A stretch of DNA of 39,523 nucleotides from positions 1-39,523 of IMG/VR virus record IMGVR_UViG_3300030098_005730. One strand, 5' to 3'. Shown one piece after another: positions 26,789-39,523 of this stretch. The DNA comes from a virus. The notes under the pieces are model-generated. The model was not told where the DNA came from. It saw only the letters and a program-made list of their open reading frames with translations, and did no database searches. The number at the start of each line of letters is the position of its first letter. Positions within the stretch are counted from its first letter, which is position 1. The translations under genes and the position numbers were made by a program.

Positions 26789-27235
26789 TTACCGGTCCAG
26801 CCTCTTGACAGCGCACATTGTGTCTGTGGTGTCGATGCTTCGGCGGTCAGCCTGGTACATGAGCTGCCAGATTTTGGCGCTCGGAGTCGAGCCCGGCGTA
26901 ATCATGTCGGCCATGTCGTGACCTCGGTGCCAGGTGGTGCGAGTCACGGCCAGGATCGGGGGTACGGGACCAAGCGGGCGGGTCTCGTGGTACTGAAGCA
27001 TCCGAATGCCGTCGAGGGAGGTGAGGAACATCTGCCACGCCTCGTCGTCGTCCAGGTAACGCTGCAAGTGCGTCAGGATAAGCCGACGGTATTTGGGCGA
27101 GCTACGGAGGTGGAGCTCCTTGACCCAGGTGAAGTCTTTGCGACCACATGTGGGCCAGAAATACCAACGGCCGGACACATCTCGGGGCTTAGTGGCTAGG
27201 TTCATCATGTGCTGGAACATGTGCGATTCGGTCAT
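26789..27235 (-). CDS. Hypothetical leftward early protein
   Basis: 148 residues from ATG 27235 with a good AAAGGAGAATCC ribosome-binding site. The sequence starts MTESHMFQHMMNLATKPRDV and is rich in Met, Trp, Arg and His (SGRWYFWPTCGRKDFTW, LILTHLQRYLDDDEAWQMF). It is the second gene after the divergent axis. No family recognised. Early host-takeover proteins often look like this, but nothing here shows it. Confidence 0.5.
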   Translation of the reverse strand: MTESHMFQHMMNLATKPRDVSGRWYFWPTCGRKDFTWVKELHLRSSPKYRRLILTHLQRYLDDDEAWQMFLTSLDGIRMLQYHETRPLGPVPPILAVTRTTWHRGHDMADMITPGSTPSAKIWQLMYQADRRSIDTTDTMCAVKRLDR

Positions 27236-27341
27236 GGATTCTCCTTTGTGGGCTGGGTTGAAACGGCGGTGCCACTGTGAGCGACCCGGGCCCGACCGTA
27301 CTCTCCTGGCTGCTCCAACCCACTGAGGGCCAGGACAAACG

Positions 27342-27373
27342 AAAACCCCCACCCTCTTGCGAGAGCGGGGGTT
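27342..27373 (-). terminator. Rho-independent terminator after the zinc-ribbon gene
   Basis: Read on the minus strand: ACCCCCGCTCT, loop CGCA, AGAGGGTGGGGG, then TTTTCGTTT. A long G/C stem followed by a T-rich run is a textbook intrinsic terminator, placed 6 nt after the gene's stop. The equivalent position of the right arm of the inverted duplication (about 28905-28935) keeps part of the sequence, but its stem is broken. Confidence 0.75.
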
Positions 27374-27379
27374 CCGTTC

Positions 27380-27973
27380 TTAGGAGTTCTTCGTGGCGAT
27401 TCCTTGCTGACCCATCCTTTCCATCTGGAAGCCCTGTGTCACTCTGCGGGTTTCCGGGTTGTCCGGGTCATCGAACATTCCCAGACCGCACACGGTGCAT
27501 CCACTCAGCGTGGGGTGCTGGACTCGACCGGATCCGGGGCAGGTCGTCAGGCTCCCGTATTTCGGATTGAACCGCTTGTGGGGCCGCATGAACGCCGCTG
27601 GGGGCAGGTTGCAGTGCTGGCACGTGCCGTCCTCGCTGACCGGAACCTGGGAGCCGGCGCAGAACCCACCCCCGGAGAAATGTTTCGGCATCAAGGCCAT
27701 CATCGAGCCGGCGTCTTCGCCACATTCCGCGCAGGAGCCGTTTTCGAGTTCCTTGTGAGACCCAGGGCACGTTGGCTCGTCACGATTCAAGCGACGGTGC
27801 CATGGGGCCTTGGGAAAGTCGTCCCGACCGTCGAGTGCGGCGTTCTGACCTGGTTCGTTGTTGAACCATTCGTCGCCTACGGGGGATCCCCACTGCGGGG
27901 TGGTGACCTGGAGACCGATCTTGGCCCCGGTCTTCGGGGAGACCACATTCGTGGCCCTTTTTGAGTGTCCCAT
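27380..27973 (-). CDS. Multi-zinc-ribbon protein, first gene of the leftward operon
   Basis: 197 residues from ATG 27973, with TTAGGAG upstream. It carries three Cys units: C69, C81, C84 with H98; C105, C118, C121 with H132; and C145, C159, C162 without an obvious His. The spacing C-x(11-13)-C-x2-C-x(10-13)-H and the recurring C-x-G-S start identify repeated small zinc ribbons. The first 60 residues are basic and polar. Such proteins bind nucleic acid or proteins. As the first gene read from the divergent axis it is a good candidate for an early regulator. A frameshifted copy lies opposite at 28296-28892. Confidence 0.65.
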   Translation of the reverse strand: MGHSKRATNVVSPKTGAKIGLQVTTPQWGSPVGDEWFNNEPGQNAALDGRDDFPKAPWHRRLNRDEPTCPGSHKELENGSCAECGEDAGSMMALMPKHFSGGGFCAGSQVPVSEDGTCQHCNLPPAAFMRPHKRFNPKYGSLTTCPGSGRVQHPTLSGCTVCGLGMFDDPDNPETRRVTQGFQMERMGQQGIATKNS

Positions 27974-28012
27974 CTCTTGATTCTCCTAATGACCCTCCAC
28001 AGGGCCAGGTTG

Positions 28013-28041
28013 AAGGGAAATCGGGTTCTCCAATTTCCCTT
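28013..28041 (-). promoter_or_regulatory. Leader hairpin of the zinc-ribbon gene (left arm)
   Basis: AAGGGAAAT (28013-28021) pairs perfectly with ATTTCCCTT (28033-28041) over an 11-nt loop, about 40 nt before the zinc-ribbon start. The right arm keeps an 8-bp version, AGGGAAAT/ATTTCCCT (28224-28231 with 28242-28249). Conservation of the stem while the loop changes argues that the structure matters. Confidence 0.45.
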
Positions 28042-28080
28042 GGGTTGTGTCGTTTTCGTCATGCGCGAAGCGGTGCCGAC

Positions 28081-28102
28081 CGGCGAAGGTTGCGTGACAA
28101 AT
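28081..28102 (-). promoter_or_regulatory. Conserved 22-nt box, left arm
   Basis: On the minus strand this box begins ATTTGTCACGCAACC and ends TTCGCCG. It matches the right-arm box at 28167-28188 at about 19 of 22 positions, clearly better than the DNA around it. The symmetric placement on both sides of the axis suggests a protein-binding or promoter element. It is not a good match to sigma-70 or sigma-54 consensus spacing. Confidence 0.4.
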
Positions 28103-28111
28103 CGTTCCTGG

Positions 28112-28158
28112 CGCGTCGTGTGCCCACCCGCCGTACTTTGGCGGGCGCACACGGCGTG
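28112..28158. promoter_or_regulatory. Palindromic axis of the inverted duplication (cruciform-capable)
   Basis: GTGTGC/GCACAC (28118-28123 with 28147-28152) and CCCGCC/GGCGGG (28127-28132 with 28140-28145) form a near-perfect hairpin with a 7-nt loop. Pairing continues outwards with wobbles to 28112/28158. It lies exactly where leftward and rightward transcription part. I see no clear sigma-70 boxes here. An origin, a divergent promoter/operator or a cruciform site are the options. Confidence 0.5.
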
Positions 28159-28166
28159 ACAGGGTT

Positions 28167-28188
28167 ATTTGGCACGGAACGTTCGCCG
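28167..28188 (+). promoter_or_regulatory. Conserved 22-nt box, right arm
   Basis: The box begins ATTTGGCACGGAACG and ends TTCGCCG on the plus strand and mirrors the left-arm box at 28081-28102, differing at only about three positions. In the right arm it points toward the basic-protein genes, although a decayed gene copy lies between. Confidence 0.4.
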
Positions 28189-28223
28189 CAGCGGCACGAA
28201 CATGAAGAAAACGACACAGCCCT

Positions 28224-28249
28224 AGGGAAATGGAGGTTCCGATTTCCCT
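28224..28249 (+). promoter_or_regulatory. Leader hairpin, right arm copy
   Basis: AGGGAAAT and ATTTCCCT form an 8-bp stem around a loop that itself contains GGA/TCC. It corresponds in position to the left-arm leader hairpin at 28013-28041. Confidence 0.4.
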
Positions 28250-28295
28250 TCAAACTGACCCTGTGTGCCCCTGATGGTCTTAGGCGAATCAAGAG

Positions 28296-28892
28296 ATGGG
28301 AAGCTCAAGAAGGAATACGACATGGCGTCCCATCGAAGCCTGGGCCACGAGCGATTCTCCAGGGCACAACTCCGCAGTGTTGATCGCAACTCGAAAGCGA
28401 CGAAGGGGGTCAACGGCGGGCCGGGGCAGGACGGCGCGCTCGACGGTCAGGACGAACTTACCCTCGTGCTCCATGGAACCGACGATTGAGTCGTGACGAG
28501 ACAGCGTGAACTGGGCCTCACGAGGCTCGTAAATGTCGGATGCGGGGACTGTGACGAGACGCAGGGTCGATGATGGCATTGGTGACGAGACCTTCCTCCG
28601 AGGGCGGGTTGTGTGGCGGGTGCCAGGGGCTGGGCAGCGAGGTGGTGCGTGTCAGTGCTGCGGCCTGTCACCAGCGGGGTTCATGCGGGCGCGCAAGTGG
28701 TTCAATCCGAAGTGCGGGAGGATGATGGCATGCCCCGGTCCGTCGGGTCCAGCGACCCTGATGGGTGGAGGTGGCGTGTGTGGCCTGGGGATGGTCGGTG
28801 ATCCGGGCAACTCGGAAGCTCGCAGGGTGGCGCAGGGCTTCCGGGTGGAGAGGCTGGGGCAGCGACGGGATCGGCACGCTAGAACTCCTTGA
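28296..28892 (+). pseudogene. Decayed inverted copy of the zinc-ribbon gene
   Basis: The start context GAATCAAGAGATGGGA is kept, but the ribosome-binding site AGGAG has become AGGCG and the frame is broken by several indels. In successive frames one reads a GPGQDGALDGQDE block, then a CQCCGLSPAGFMRARKWFNP block, then CGLGMVGDP and RRVAQGFRVERLGQ, each matching the intact gene. Key ligands are lost: the His after the second unit is Arg, and a Cys of the third unit is Gly. The longest open part, 28533-28892, could still make a 119-residue remnant, but it has no good start signal. Confidence 0.7.
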
Positions 28893-29280
28893 GCGGAAGC
28901 CACGGTCTCGCAGGAGGGTGGGGGTTTACGGCTGGTCCTGGGCCGTCGGCAAGTCTCTCTCCTCTTCCGACTCTGGGGTGGAGTAGTCTCCACTCCAGTG
29001 GCACTCCCTCCCGTGGGTAGAGACAACGTTCGTTATGAAGACTCTTCTCGTAACGTAGGAAGCCCTGTCTTCGGTTTCCCATCAGGGTCGATGGACTGAT
29101 TACTCAGGGGACCCTATTCCGAAAATCTCAGAGTCACGTTTGTATTGGGACTCCAGTCTCTCTTTCTACGTACCTCCCCTTCACGAAAATATAGAAGGCA
29201 TGGAAAGTGGGGTCTGTTTTGAGTGTGTCCGCTCTACGTGATAGCTGTTTACGTTAAGACGTAACTGACGTGGGGTGACC
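28893..29280 (+). promoter_or_regulatory. 388-nt non-coding leader before the basic-protein genes
   Basis: I see no gene here. The first 60 nt are the tail of the inverted duplication, including the broken terminator. Small dyads follow: GTGGAG/CTCCAC at about 28978-28993 and a GAAGA/TCTTC dyad flanked by CGTTA/TAACG at about 29030-29055. Just before the first basic gene is TTACGT-TAAG-ACGTAA (29249-29264), an operator-like palindrome, with two further ACGT copies nearby. No convincing -35/-10 pair was found, so the promoter for the rightward genes remains unplaced. Confidence 0.4.
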
Positions 29281-30024
29281 ATGGGTGCAAAGCGCAAAAT
29301 CCTGAGCAAGCTGGCCAAGAAGCTCACCGGGAAAAAGACCAAGACGAAGACCAAGAAGAAAACTTCTTCCCGGAAGCCTAGATCAGGTCAGCGTGCCAAG
29401 CTCCGGGAGCAGGTGAAGAGTGCCGGGGTGGGCAACACTGTCGCAGGAAGTCGCCGAAGGAAGGCAGGCCTCCAGGCGGTGAAGGATCGCATGTCGGCTC
29501 GGAAACGCGCCAAGGGACGACCCCTGGGATCTCGGGGAAAGCAGCCCGGGAAGCCTCTCACTGCGAATCCCAGGAAGCTCGACAAGCTGGACGAGGCGAA
29601 CCTGCGTTCCGATCTTCGCAAGCAGGCGTATCTCCGCAAGCTGAATCTGATCCCGGGCACCAATAAATCTGGGGGCGGCCCTGGATCTCTTGGCTCTGTT
29701 TCTTCAGTTGGCGATCAAACCCTAAGATTCAAAAGGGCAAACCTGACGCGCTTTAAGAACACGGTCAGAAGTAGGGTTCGTAAGGAAAAAAAGGATCTTC
29801 AAAAAAATCGAGGTAAATGGGCTGGTTCCAAATGGCGCAGTAAAGCCGACAAGAACCTCATGAAAGCCAGGCTGGACGAGTTCTCTTCCAATACTGTGCA
29901 AGCGGTGCGGAAGGAGAAAGACAAATTGACTAAAGCTCGCAAGAAAGTGCGGAAGAGAGCAAAGGCAATGAAGTCGCGACTTAGAAAACCCCGGTATCCC
30001 CGGAAAAAGATGACGAGAAACTAG
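29281..30024 (+). CDS. Extremely basic protamine/histone-H1-like protein 1
   Basis: 247 residues from ATG 29281 (a GTG two codons earlier is an alternative), with GGGGTG upstream. I count about 84 Lys+Arg, 34 per cent, spread along the whole length; for example KKLTGKKTKTKTKKKTSSRK in the N-terminal part and KARKKVRKRAKAMKSRLRK near the end. A Gly/Ser linker near 125-140 separates two basic halves. No enzymatic domain. The start MGAKRKIL matches the next gene's MGAGRKIL, indicating paralogy. Probable role: non-specific DNA or RNA binding, perhaps condensing phage DNA or remodelling the host nucleoid. Confidence 0.65.
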   Translation: MGAKRKILSKLAKKLTGKKTKTKTKKKTSSRKPRSGQRAKLREQVKSAGVGNTVAGSRRRKAGLQAVKDRMSARKRAKGRPLGSRGKQPGKPLTANPRKLDKLDEANLRSDLRKQAYLRKLNLIPGTNKSGGGPGSLGSVSSVGDQTLRFKRANLTRFKNTVRSRVRKEKKDLQKNRGKWAGSKWRSKADKNLMKARLDEFSSNTVQAVRKEKDKLTKARKKVRKRAKAMKSRLRKPRYPRKKMTRN

Positions 30025-30044
30025 GGCAATAGGAGATTGGAGCA

Positions 30045-30857
30045 ATGGGAGCTGGAAGGAAGATCCTAGGCCGTGTGGTCAGAAAAGCTGCTTCAGGGAA
30101 GAAAAAGGCAGCTTCTAAAAAGCGCCGCTACAAGACCGAAGATGCCCTATCTGACGCGCGGAAGCGTGTTGCCAGGCGCAAGAAGCCTTCAAGGAAGAAG
30201 ACTCAATCCAGGAAAAAGTCTTCCAAATGGGATTTGAGGACTCATCCCCAGAAGGCTTCGCCGTCCCGGAAGCAAAATCCAGCTAAGACGTACGTTCCAA
30301 GCGCAAAAAAGAAGGCTTCTAGCTCCAAAAAGAAGTCTGGATCTGGCCTCATCTCCTCGAGCTCGGTGGGCCAGCCCAAGATCAGCCGTGATGACCTCAT
30401 GATGTTGAGGGAATACCCGGGTAGCCCAGCTCGGAAAGCTCGTGCGACAGCCAAGGGGAAGGCGACCAGGGCGAAGAACAAGGCTGCACGAGAGGAAAAG
30501 GCCGAGAATCTTCGGAAAGACAAGAACCGGGCGGCTCTAACCAAGCAACGCCTGGAGGCACGCCGTGCGGCTGCGGCCAAGAAGAAGATCAATATCAAAA
30601 AGGCCACCCAGGATGCTCAGGCTGCGAAAAAGGCCACAGCTAAGTCGAAACGCCGATACCAGTTTCGATCTGACCCCTACGAAAGTGGAAGCCCCCGCGC
30701 AGCGGAGCGGGCAGCGGCTCGGGCGGCTCGCAAAAGGGAAATCCAACTGGAACAGGGAAACAAAAAGACAGCCGCACAGAAGCGTGAAGCGGCCAAAGCC
30801 CAGCGGAAGCGCAAACGTACCAACCGTGTTGGCCGGATGAGGAATTGGACAAAATGA
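30045..30857 (+). CDS. Extremely basic protamine/histone-H1-like protein 2
   Basis: 270 residues, ATG preceded by AGGAGATTGGAGCA. It begins MGAGRKILGRVVRKAASGKK, sharing its first residues with protein 1. Ala/Lys/Arg blocks follow (PSRKKTQSRKKSSKWDLR, ARAARKREIQLEQGNKKTA) with Pro/Ser-rich spacers, like the tails of linker histones. A DDLMMLREYPGSPARKARAT segment near 115-134 may fold. Its stop overlaps the next small gene (ATGA). Probably nucleic-acid binding; no family assigned. Confidence 0.65.
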   Translation: MGAGRKILGRVVRKAASGKKKAASKKRRYKTEDALSDARKRVARRKKPSRKKTQSRKKSSKWDLRTHPQKASPSRKQNPAKTYVPSAKKKASSSKKKSGSGLISSSSVGQPKISRDDLMMLREYPGSPARKARATAKGKATRAKNKAAREEKAENLRKDKNRAALTKQRLEARRAAAAKKKINIKKATQDAQAAKKATAKSKRRYQFRSDPYESGSPRAAERAAARAARKREIQLEQGNKKTAAQKREAAKAQRKRKRTNRVGRMRNWTK

Positions 30858-31015
30858 TCGGCCCTGTTTCCCAGCCCAAAAGGCGGAAGAAGAAGGTGAT
30901 TAAGGGCAAAAAGGCGAATTTGAAAGCCAGATCCGCCCTAAAAGCCCTGAAAGAGAGCCCCCGCTTTACACGCATCAAGTCGCAATCCGCTCAAAAGCAG
31001 CCAAAAAGGAGGTAG
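30854..31015 (+). CDS. Small basic protein (53 aa) in the basic cluster
   Basis: ATG 30854 overlaps the preceding TGA (ATGA), and the frame ends in AAAAAGGAGGTAG, whose AGGAGG serves as ribosome-binding site for the next gene. The 53 residues include KRRKKKVIKGKKANLKARSA and end QKQPKRR. The perfect coupling upstream and the placement of the next gene's signal make it a real gene. Confidence 0.6.
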   Translation: MIGPVSQPKRRKKKVIKGKKANLKARSALKALKESPRFTRIKSQSAQKQPKRR

Positions 31016-31022
31016 TTTCCCA

Positions 31023-31721
31023 ATGCCAGGCTATGCAAAAGGCGTCGCGAAGAAGATCTACAAGACCCTAGCCGCCAAGAAAGCAACTCAGAAGGCCAAG
31101 AAGCCAACGAAGGGGCGTGTCCAGGCCACCAAAGCCAAACTTCGGACCAAGAAAAAGCGAGCGGCAAAGAAGACAACGACCACAGCGAAAGATATTGAAG
31201 GCGCTCGTCGGCGTAAGACAAAGCGTGGTCCTATAAAAAAAGCTGGTCGCAGCATGTCCCAACGCGCCGACCGCAAAGCGGATATTCGTAAAAAGCGCGA
31301 TATTTTGAAGGCAGGGGAACGTGATTCCTCAATGCCTGCTGTAAGGGAATGGCGTGAATCTGAGCGAGGATGGACCAGAAACTACCGAAAGCGAACAGCT
31401 GCTCAACGCAAAGATCCGAAGGGTGCAGTTGAAAAATCCAGAGCCCGCAAAATAGAAAAAGAGACGGGCCGGAAAGCACGTAAGCGTAAACAGCAACGCA
31501 AAGTGCGGAAAACCGAATTGAATAAAGTATCGAGTAGGGTGCGGAAAGGAGCGGAGAAGGAGCTTCTGACCGGGGACGCGTATCACAGTCTGGAATACCA
31601 AAAACAGCTCATGCGGGATACGACGAAGAAGGGTTCTCGCGCTACTGCCGGTTCACAGCTGAGACACAAGAAGCGAGTGACAGCTGCTCGCAAGCGCGCC
31701 GACTACCGCAAAAAGTACTAG
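31023..31721 (+). CDS. Extremely basic protamine/histone-H1-like protein 3
   Basis: 232 residues, with AGGAGG 10 nt upstream. The N-terminus (MPGYAKGVAKKIYKTLAAKK) leads into AKK/ATK repeats, as in linker-histone tails. The C-terminal two-thirds has Arg/Lys-rich helices (ARKIEKETGRKARKRKQQRK, RKTELNKVSSRVRKGAEKE). Last gene of the basic cluster, ending 14 nt from a convergent gene. Likely DNA or RNA binding. Whether it is packaged in the virion cannot be told from sequence. Confidence 0.65.
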   Translation: MPGYAKGVAKKIYKTLAAKKATQKAKKPTKGRVQATKAKLRTKKKRAAKKTTTTAKDIEGARRRKTKRGPIKKAGRSMSQRADRKADIRKKRDILKAGERDSSMPAVREWRESERGWTRNYRKRTAAQRKDPKGAVEKSRARKIEKETGRKARKRKQQRKVRKTELNKVSSRVRKGAEKELLTGDAYHSLEYQKQLMRDTTKKGSRATAGSQLRHKKRVTAARKRADYRKKY

Positions 31722-37807: not shown

Positions 37808-39523
37808 TTCTGATTATCGCCCTCGCGTTCCTGCTTCTGGCCTCCAATGCGGAAGCAGGAGCTGTCTGGGGTTGCTTTGGCCAGACTTGCCAGCATCTTA
37901 CTGCTCGGTCTGGTGATACTTTTAGTGCTCAGGATTCAGATTCTTCTATTCCCTGGCAAGTCGCAGGATCGGCACCAAGTTGCTCCTCAGAAGGACAAGC
38001 CTACTGGCACTCGAGTAACGACCGGATAAATGTGTGCGACGATAGTTCCTGGGTTACGTTTTATTCGGGAGCCCATACGACAGACACCGGGCCGAGTCCC
38101 GACTGCTCGGGCACATTGACGTACCAAGATGGCGAAGGGGCTTGCGACACCTACACCCTGGCGGGGAACACTACGGAACTCGCGACGGTCGCCAGTAAGA
38201 CTTCTGGCCGATGCGCTCAATTCGACGCGAATGGAAACATTGGAGCAGCGGGCGCTGCATGTAGTAGCGGAGGTGGTGGTTCTGTTGCCGGTAGCGACAC
38301 CGAGGTCCAATTCAACGACGGGGGGTCTGCATTCGGTGCAGATGACCGCTTCCGCTGGGTAAAGAGCAACCACCGGCTAGTCATTGGAGATGCGGACTAC
38401 GGCTGGGGAGCGATCTCTGCCTATGGCAGCGGGTCAACCGAGGTGGGCATTGTCAGTGCCTATGTGGGCTCCGGGGCCACTACTTCGGGGTTCAACGTCC
38501 TGGGCAAAGCGAGTGGAAGTGTCGGAAGCCCGGGGGCAGTTCCCGACGATGAGCTGATCGCTCGCTGGTGGGCCTTGGGTCACAACGGAAGCTCTTTTGT
38601 GAACTCCTGCCAGATGAACGTCTATGCGGACGGGGCCTTTTCGGGGAGCAATCAGGGGAGCGATTGGGAACTCACTTGTCCCTTGAACGATAATACGGGC
38701 TTGACGGCTCGTATCCAGGCCCTGGGCTCGGGGGAAATCCATATTCGGGACAAGACCATCTTTGGCCAGAACCTGGACAATACAACCCTGACGACAGCAG
38801 GGGATGAGTCGTACTTCCTGTTTCTGGATGATCTGGACATTGACGTGAGTCCAAGTAGCGGTGCGTCGAATCTGAAGATCATCGACATTAACTCGACTCT
38901 GCATTACGGCCAGTCGGCAGTGTCGTTGTCCACGTTCACCAGTTTTGCGAACGAAACTGTCTTCAACTACGACGACGCCAGCAACTCGGTGATCTTTGTC
39001 CCATGGACGTTCAACAATGGATCTACGGCTAAAAGGACAGCCAACGGAACCTTCCTGACCTTGGCTCAGTCGTATCGAGATACTCCGTCCTATGAGAATG
39101 GGGACGCGAGTGCCTGGACGGTGAACTCTCACACGACGCTGGTATCGTCTCCGATCATCAAGAACACCGGCTCAATGGGCGATATTACCCTGCTGGCTGG
39201 GAAGGGTGTGTCCAGTCAGCCTCAGTTCTCTTGTGGAAATGGGAATTGCACGATCACTAGCTGGGTGGATTTTTATGCCCCGAGTGCGGCCTATGGGTCT
39301 GGTGCGGGGACAGAAGACATTACGACTCGGTACGGCTTGCAGATCCTTGCAGACACTCGAGCGGACAAGCATTACGGGATCTACAATGAGGCTCTGACGC
39401 AGTTCCCCTCTGTGACCACAGCGATCTCTGCGACTTTTACGCTGACCCCCACCTCTACGTTTATGGTTCTCAACCCAGACGCGAGCATAACCAGCAGTGC
39501 TTCCACTGCGATCAATGACGGGG
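37804..39523 (+). CDS. Tail fibre/adhesin with Sec signal peptide (3' truncated by window edge)
   Basis: At least 573 residues, open to the window end. Residues 1-18 are a signal peptide ending in NAEA before GAVWG. The next about 160 residues hold eight Cys. Near residue 165 an EVQFNDGGSAFGADDRFRW block matches the repeated chain-start motif of many phage fibres. The rest is Gly/Ser/Thr/Asn-rich beta structure. It presumably forms a receptor-binding trimer. The signal peptide and cysteines are unusual for a virion protein assembled in the cytoplasm and suggest periplasmic or surface maturation. It is coupled by 4 nt to the upstream gene. Confidence 0.7.
   Translation, partial: MILIIALAFLLLASNAEAGAVWGCFGQTCQHLTARSGDTFSAQDSDSSIPWQVAGSAPSCSSEGQAYWHSSNDRINVCDDSSWVTFYSGAHTTDTGPSPDCSGTLTYQDGEGACDTYTLAGNTTELATVASKTSGRCAQFDANGNIGAAGAACSSGGGGSVAGSDTEVQFNDGGSAFGADDRFRWVKSNHRLVIGDADYGWGAISAYGSGSTEVGIVSAYVGSGATTSGFNVLGKASGSVGSPGAVPDDELIARWWALGHNGSSFVNSCQMNVYADGAFSGSNQGSDWELTCPLNDNTGLTARIQALGSGEIHIRDKTIFGQNLDNTTLTTAGDESYFLFLDDLDIDVSPSSGASNLKIIDINSTLHYGQSAVSLSTFTSFANETVFNYDDASNSVIFVPWTFNNGSTAKRTANGTFLTLAQSYRDTPSYENGDASAWTVNSHTTLVSSPIIKNTGSMGDITLLAGKGVSSQPQFSCGNGNCTITSWVDFYAPSAAYGSGAGTEDITTRYGLQILADTRADKHYGIYNEALTQFPSVTTAISATFTLTPTSTFMVLNPDASITSSASTAINDG

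Follow-up and report, generated by a model that had tools for sequence, protein, structure and literature searches.

The virus record analysed here over its full length of 39,523 bases, referred to below as the window, contains a large inverted duplication in which two reverse-complementary arms of ∼0.8 kb abut at a hairpin-forming axis near position 28136. The arrangement probably represents a fold-back inverted duplication of a 0.8-kb transcription unit, of which the left copy is still a working gene and the right copy is dead. Long inverted repeats are unstable and are expected to be rare in phage genomes. The record, which is without an exact end repeat, encodes a terminase, a portal/head-tail adaptor and a major head protein, as well as an SU10-type adaptor, SSB and PD-(D/E)XK nuclease-like proteins, and a tRNA-Asp (gtc) is predicted at 38415-38510 on the plus strand. 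The features located within the repeat are as follows.

27327-28133, minus strand: left arm, a complete transcription unit (upstream region, gene, terminator), delimited by alignment
27342-27375, minus strand: predicted intrinsic terminator-like hairpin of 15 pairs with a T tail, at the end of the left arm
27380-27973, minus strand: intact 197-aa ORF with three C-[PA]-G-S-x(7-10)-C-x-x-C motifs and the Shine-Dalgarno (SD) sequence GGAG upstream of the ATG (coding score z 4.3)
28014-28039, plus strand: left-arm dyad AGGGAAAT-N11-ATTTCCCT in the upstream region
28134-28138, unstranded: axis or spacer of ∼5 nt, the hairpin loop between the arms (from alignment and fold)
28139-28944, plus strand: right arm, the degraded inverted copy, delimited by alignment
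28224-28249, plus strand: right-arm copy of the dyad, AGGGAAAT-N10-ATTTCCCT
28289-28579, minus strand: 96-aa antisense ORF in the right arm with Shine-Dalgarno-like GGAGGAAGG, probably due to chance
28747-28765, plus strand: 19-nt patch, an inverted copy (95%) of 29078-29096 that is unlike the left arm
28795-28853, plus strand: 59-nt stretch in which all 12 differences from 27416-27474 keep plus-strand pairing, as T·G or G·T (permutation P = 0.0012, from shuffling of the observed differences)

Alignment of positions 27200-28135 with the reverse complement of 28136-29100 produced one continuous match, with 623 of 784 ungapped columns identical (79.5%), 161 mismatches and 43 gap columns. The local alignment score of the arms was 596, compared with a maximum of 30 among 50 shuffles, and the inverted repeat is the only self-match of the window at E<=0.01 in self-BLAST; a search of the virus record against its own sequence returned the same repeat. 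The initial annotation had described two moderately diverged reverse-complement arms of ∼0.8 kb at 27313-28955 and had called for self-alignment of the region. The description is confirmed, with coordinates correct to within about 15 bp and reverse-strand identity that spans ∼800 bp, far beyond ∼100 nt. The long hairpin that it placed at the centre is likewise borne out: the central 291 nt, folded as plus-strand RNA, reaches −189.8 kcal/mol (z = −14.8), and the minus strand of the same segment folds at −172.6 kcal/mol (z = −13.2).

The left arm constitutes a single transcription unit read leftwards, comprising ∼150 bp of upstream region, the SD sequence GGAG, the 197-aa ORF and the terminator, and the arms end just past this terminator. 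The cysteine motifs of the encoded protein (CPGSHKELENGSCAEC, CAGSQVPVSEDGTCQHC, and CPGSGRVQHPTLSGCTVC) suggest that it is zinc-ribbon-like, and no match to it was found in Pfam, PHROGs, NCBIfam or PDB. Homologues were also absent from viral contigs, prokaryote genomes, phages and plasmids in scans with 8-residue exact patterns or plain tblastn, which distant relatives can escape, and none of the neighbouring genes was usable as search bait.

The right arm keeps the layout of the left, read rightwards, and is damaged throughout. The SD sequence has changed from GGAG to GGCG, the zinc-ligand cysteine motifs are lost, the arm carries frameshifts, in-frame stops and about 26 indels overall, and the terminator stem is broken, with the terminator no longer detected; one copy of the unit is therefore intact and the other disabled. 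By codon position in the left-arm gene, substitutions occur at rates of 0.206 (first), 0.216 (second) and 0.242 (third), so that third positions are hardly preferred, and pN/pS between the arms is 0.66. Codon constraint on the divergence is thus only mild, which fits the comparison of a functional left arm with a decaying right arm. The possibility that the antisense ORF at 28289-28579 is a new overprinted gene was dismissed for lack of evidence, since an ORF of this length arises in 28% of simulated decays and no homologue of it was found; it is probably a chance product of decay. A single-sequence AlphaFold model of the ORF gave a pLDDT of 40, a low confidence that says little given an input that had neither a start codon nor an alignment.

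With arms that abut (28133/28139), an intact left unit and a broken right one, the sequence supports an earlier suggestion that the region is the scar of an inverted duplication. The gap of only ∼5 nt between the arms indicates a fold-back event at a hairpin, and the second inverted pair of 19 nt (28747-28765 and 29078-29096) points to further template switching at this site, the first member being a probable template-switch patch. The sequence CCATCAGGG occurs in the window in only three exact copies (28269-28277, 28756-28764, and 29079-29087), all within 820 bp, and two of these sit in parts of the right arm where it departs from the left. It is envisaged that a fold-back event, either hairpin-primed or acting at a hairpin-capped end, would have copied the zinc-ribbon-like unit in inverted orientation directly against itself, the mirror copy landing between the gene's own upstream region and the rightward operon for basic proteins at 29.3 kb. 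The left copy would then have stayed a working gene while the right copy, as a pseudogene, drifted to about 80% identity, a decay that would also have removed the instability of a long perfect palindrome. A leftward transcript starting to the right of 28.95 kb would include both arms, and their hairpin could sequester the start of the gene, in which case loss of pairing would be favoured. We infer the fold-back origin, this order of events and a partial role in the asymmetry (see below) for selection against pairing in the leftward transcript; no promoter for such a transcript was identified. The operon to the right (29275-31721, plus strand) consists of three consecutive genes for strongly basic proteins with K+R contents of about 34-36%, possibly DNA-binding or packaged condensing proteins. 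No family match was found for any of the three, and the first had no tblastn match in phages.

Searches with terminase, portal and capsid/head proteins as bait identified relatives at 36-68% identity, in addition to more distant ones; these include L003 (68% in the terminase), G001 (39.9 kb), G002, L004, and G010 (52% in the head protein). In G001 and G010, which share part of the phage gene set, neither a comparable inverted repeat nor a homologue of the left-arm gene was found; the other related records likewise yielded neither, although the sequences of L003 and L004 stop short of the region, so that absence there says nothing. Judged by gene order, G001 looks like a phage of the same kind that is circularly permuted relative to the window, and no long inverted repeat lies at its transcription divide (∼19.8-20.5 kb). 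The absence of both repeat and gene from G001 and G010 is consistent with a lineage-specific duplication. Short near-perfect palindromes are present in distantly related phage contigs (L009, 973-1026; L011, 2146-2177; G010, 28871-28892).

Divergence between the arms is strongly asymmetric with respect to strand, in a manner by which one DNA strand retains the capacity to form a 1.6-kb hairpin. Substitutions are given from left to right in the gene sense, a direction that leaves the ancestral arm unpolarised as there is no outgroup, and the gene differences then comprise 36 A>G, 21 C>T, 17 C>A, 14 C>G, 13 T>G and a small number of other changes. Loss of G affects 11 of 180 sites in the right arm, and one of 95 in the half remote from the axis. 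In the gene region, 57 of 130 differences keep G·T pairing on the plus strand compared with 10 on the minus strand (Fisher P = 1.7e-8). There is no deficit of transversions, of which there are 63 and which disrupt pairing on either strand. A bias of the plus strand towards G and T produces this pattern whichever of the two mirror-image arms is affected, and mutation bias is therefore the first null. Two compositions were used for the simulated nulls, that of fourfold sites in the leftward genes and one of 55% G; these nulls are simple, a single pair of arms is available, and the statistics were selected once the pattern had been noticed. The genome's own strand bias predicts ∼34 losses of G where 11 were observed (P<0.001, and still P<0.001 with 55% G), and the longest run pairable on the plus strand spans 59 columns, compared with an expectation of ∼30 (P 0.0015-0.007). 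Strand bias of this plain sort is consequently not enough to account for the entire asymmetry. RNA of the repeat folds at −1226 kcal/mol on the plus strand and −993 kcal/mol on the minus strand, a difference of −233 compared with −88 ± 30 kcal/mol in simulated decay; relative to these simulations the plus-strand fold is ordinary (within about 1 sd), whereas the minus-strand fold is weaker than expected by about 2 sd. The strand asymmetry is not what simple neutral decay would predict, and this counts against the fold-back explanation favoured here.

It is rather doubtful, if conceivable, that the divergence was shaped by pairing, through either a useful plus-strand hairpin RNA or a harmful minus-strand hairpin in a leftward leader; differences would then have survived or been removed by their effect on the hairpin of each strand, as G·T, G·A, and G·G mismatches on the plus strand and A·C, C·T, and C·C on the minus strand. 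The ordinary plus-strand fold, the over-weak minus-strand fold and the undepleted transversions lead to the hypothesis that minus-strand pairing is avoided rather than plus-strand pairing kept up, and the asymmetry is tentatively ascribed to selection against the hairpin in a leftward transcript. The version in which both arms form a functional plus-strand RNA, an imperfect hairpin of up to 1.6 kb maintained as a duplex by selection that tolerates G·U and not the opposite wobble, draws on the excess of plus-strand G·U pairs, the 59-bp stretch with 12 wobble-only changes and the difference in folding energy. It is unlikely, however, in view of the undepleted transversions and of a plus-strand energy that neutral decay would also give; moreover, such an RNA, where it crosses the left arm, would run antisense to a 10-kb block of leftward genes and no promoter for it was seen, and an Rfam search returned no known RNA family for the hairpin. 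A purely mutational cause of the asymmetry is a possibility, if not a probable one, whether through exposure of the right-arm plus strand as a displaced or non-template single strand that gains G and T through deamination-like A>G and C>T changes, or through a single error-prone round of fold-back copying. A>G and C>T indeed dominate, the mismatch set T:G, G:T, G:A, and G:G corresponds to mispairing of G with template C nearly error-free, and an excess of G on the plus strand is also seen at fourfold sites of minus-strand genes. The equilibrium of the observed spectrum would nevertheless be 74% G, which is absent from the composition of the genome, the adjacent noncoding region (28945-29270) has no G excess (skew −0.018), the deficit of G losses persists under the 55% G null, and the wobble-type changes are clustered rather than scattered. 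This account bears on the asymmetry alone and leaves the duplication unaffected, so that it and the fold-back explanation are not mutually exclusive.

Inverted chimeras belong to a known class of artefact, and the repeat could in principle derive from a chimeric fold-back read introduced in assembly or library preparation. Such a read would run into the reverse complement of the sequence to the left of 27327, but unique sequence that contains coding genes follows from 28945 instead, and a divergence of 20% that is dominated by substitutions and biased by strand is not expected of consensus errors, making this origin very improbable. There also appears to be only a slim chance that the axis is a replication origin, a telomere junction or a symmetric divergent promoter kept for its function, as had been proposed in part by the initial annotation. 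The strength of the hairpin, the divergence of transcription across the axis and the presence of the AGGGAAAT...ATTTCCCT dyad in both arms speak for such a role. The divide itself was only partly as described: ORFs at 17.7-28.0 kb run leftwards and those at 29.3-31.7 kb rightwards, but those at 0.2-17.7 kb run rightwards and those at 31.7-33.4 kb leftwards again. Against a bidirectional origin, plus-strand GC skew does not change sign at the axis, being positive to the left and to the right of 28.1 kb, and a telomere junction was rejected since a search of the record, which may be incomplete, found no match to the protelomerase family (PF16684). Retention of the repeat for a regulatory core was not borne out either, because the upstream and central region is 83% identical compared with 77.7% for the dead gene (Fisher P = 0.21), the innermost 50 bp, at 70%, are not the best-kept part of the repeat, and a search of the upstream and central region revealed no sigma-70-like promoter. 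An origin, a telomere or a selected regulatory core at the axis is thus not supported; a symmetric divergent promoter of some unfamiliar type is possible, without positive evidence in its favour.

Comparable systems are known. In Escherichia coli, inverted duplications that depend on a hairpin and have a palindrome at their centre have been shown by experiment (Darmon et al. 2010, PMC3315005) and share with the present repeat the inverted orientation and the hairpin-forming axis, a hairpin-capped end being replicated into the duplication; those, however, are large chromosomal duplications in sbcCD recA mutants, whereas the phage copy is 0.8 kb long, old and diverged, and its mechanism is deduced only. 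Template-switch mutation at quasi-palindromes (PMC3820800) resembles the 28747-28765/29078-29096 pair in producing patches templated by inverted repeats, but involves short events in yeast reporters, compared with the reading of one sequence here. Diversity-generating retroelements likewise have two diverged copies (TR/VR) and a base-specific asymmetry; in the phage repeat, by contrast, C, T and A are all altered, the copies are inverted, and a search with PF00078 found no reverse transcriptase. A retroelement was rejected on the latter ground and because the changes are not confined to the adenines of one copy.

As a type of event the duplication appears ordinary; its setting is unusual, and its divergence is oddly one-sided. 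The repeat has been caught in mid-decay and shows which differences between arms survive. Should the asymmetry be confirmed in relatives, it would provide a natural record of whether RNA self-pairing or DNA hairpin formation drives escape from a palindrome; otherwise the region would amount to an ordinary gene duplication with one dead copy. If the divergence was indeed shaped by pairing, the repeat would record selection on the self-pairing of a phage transcript.
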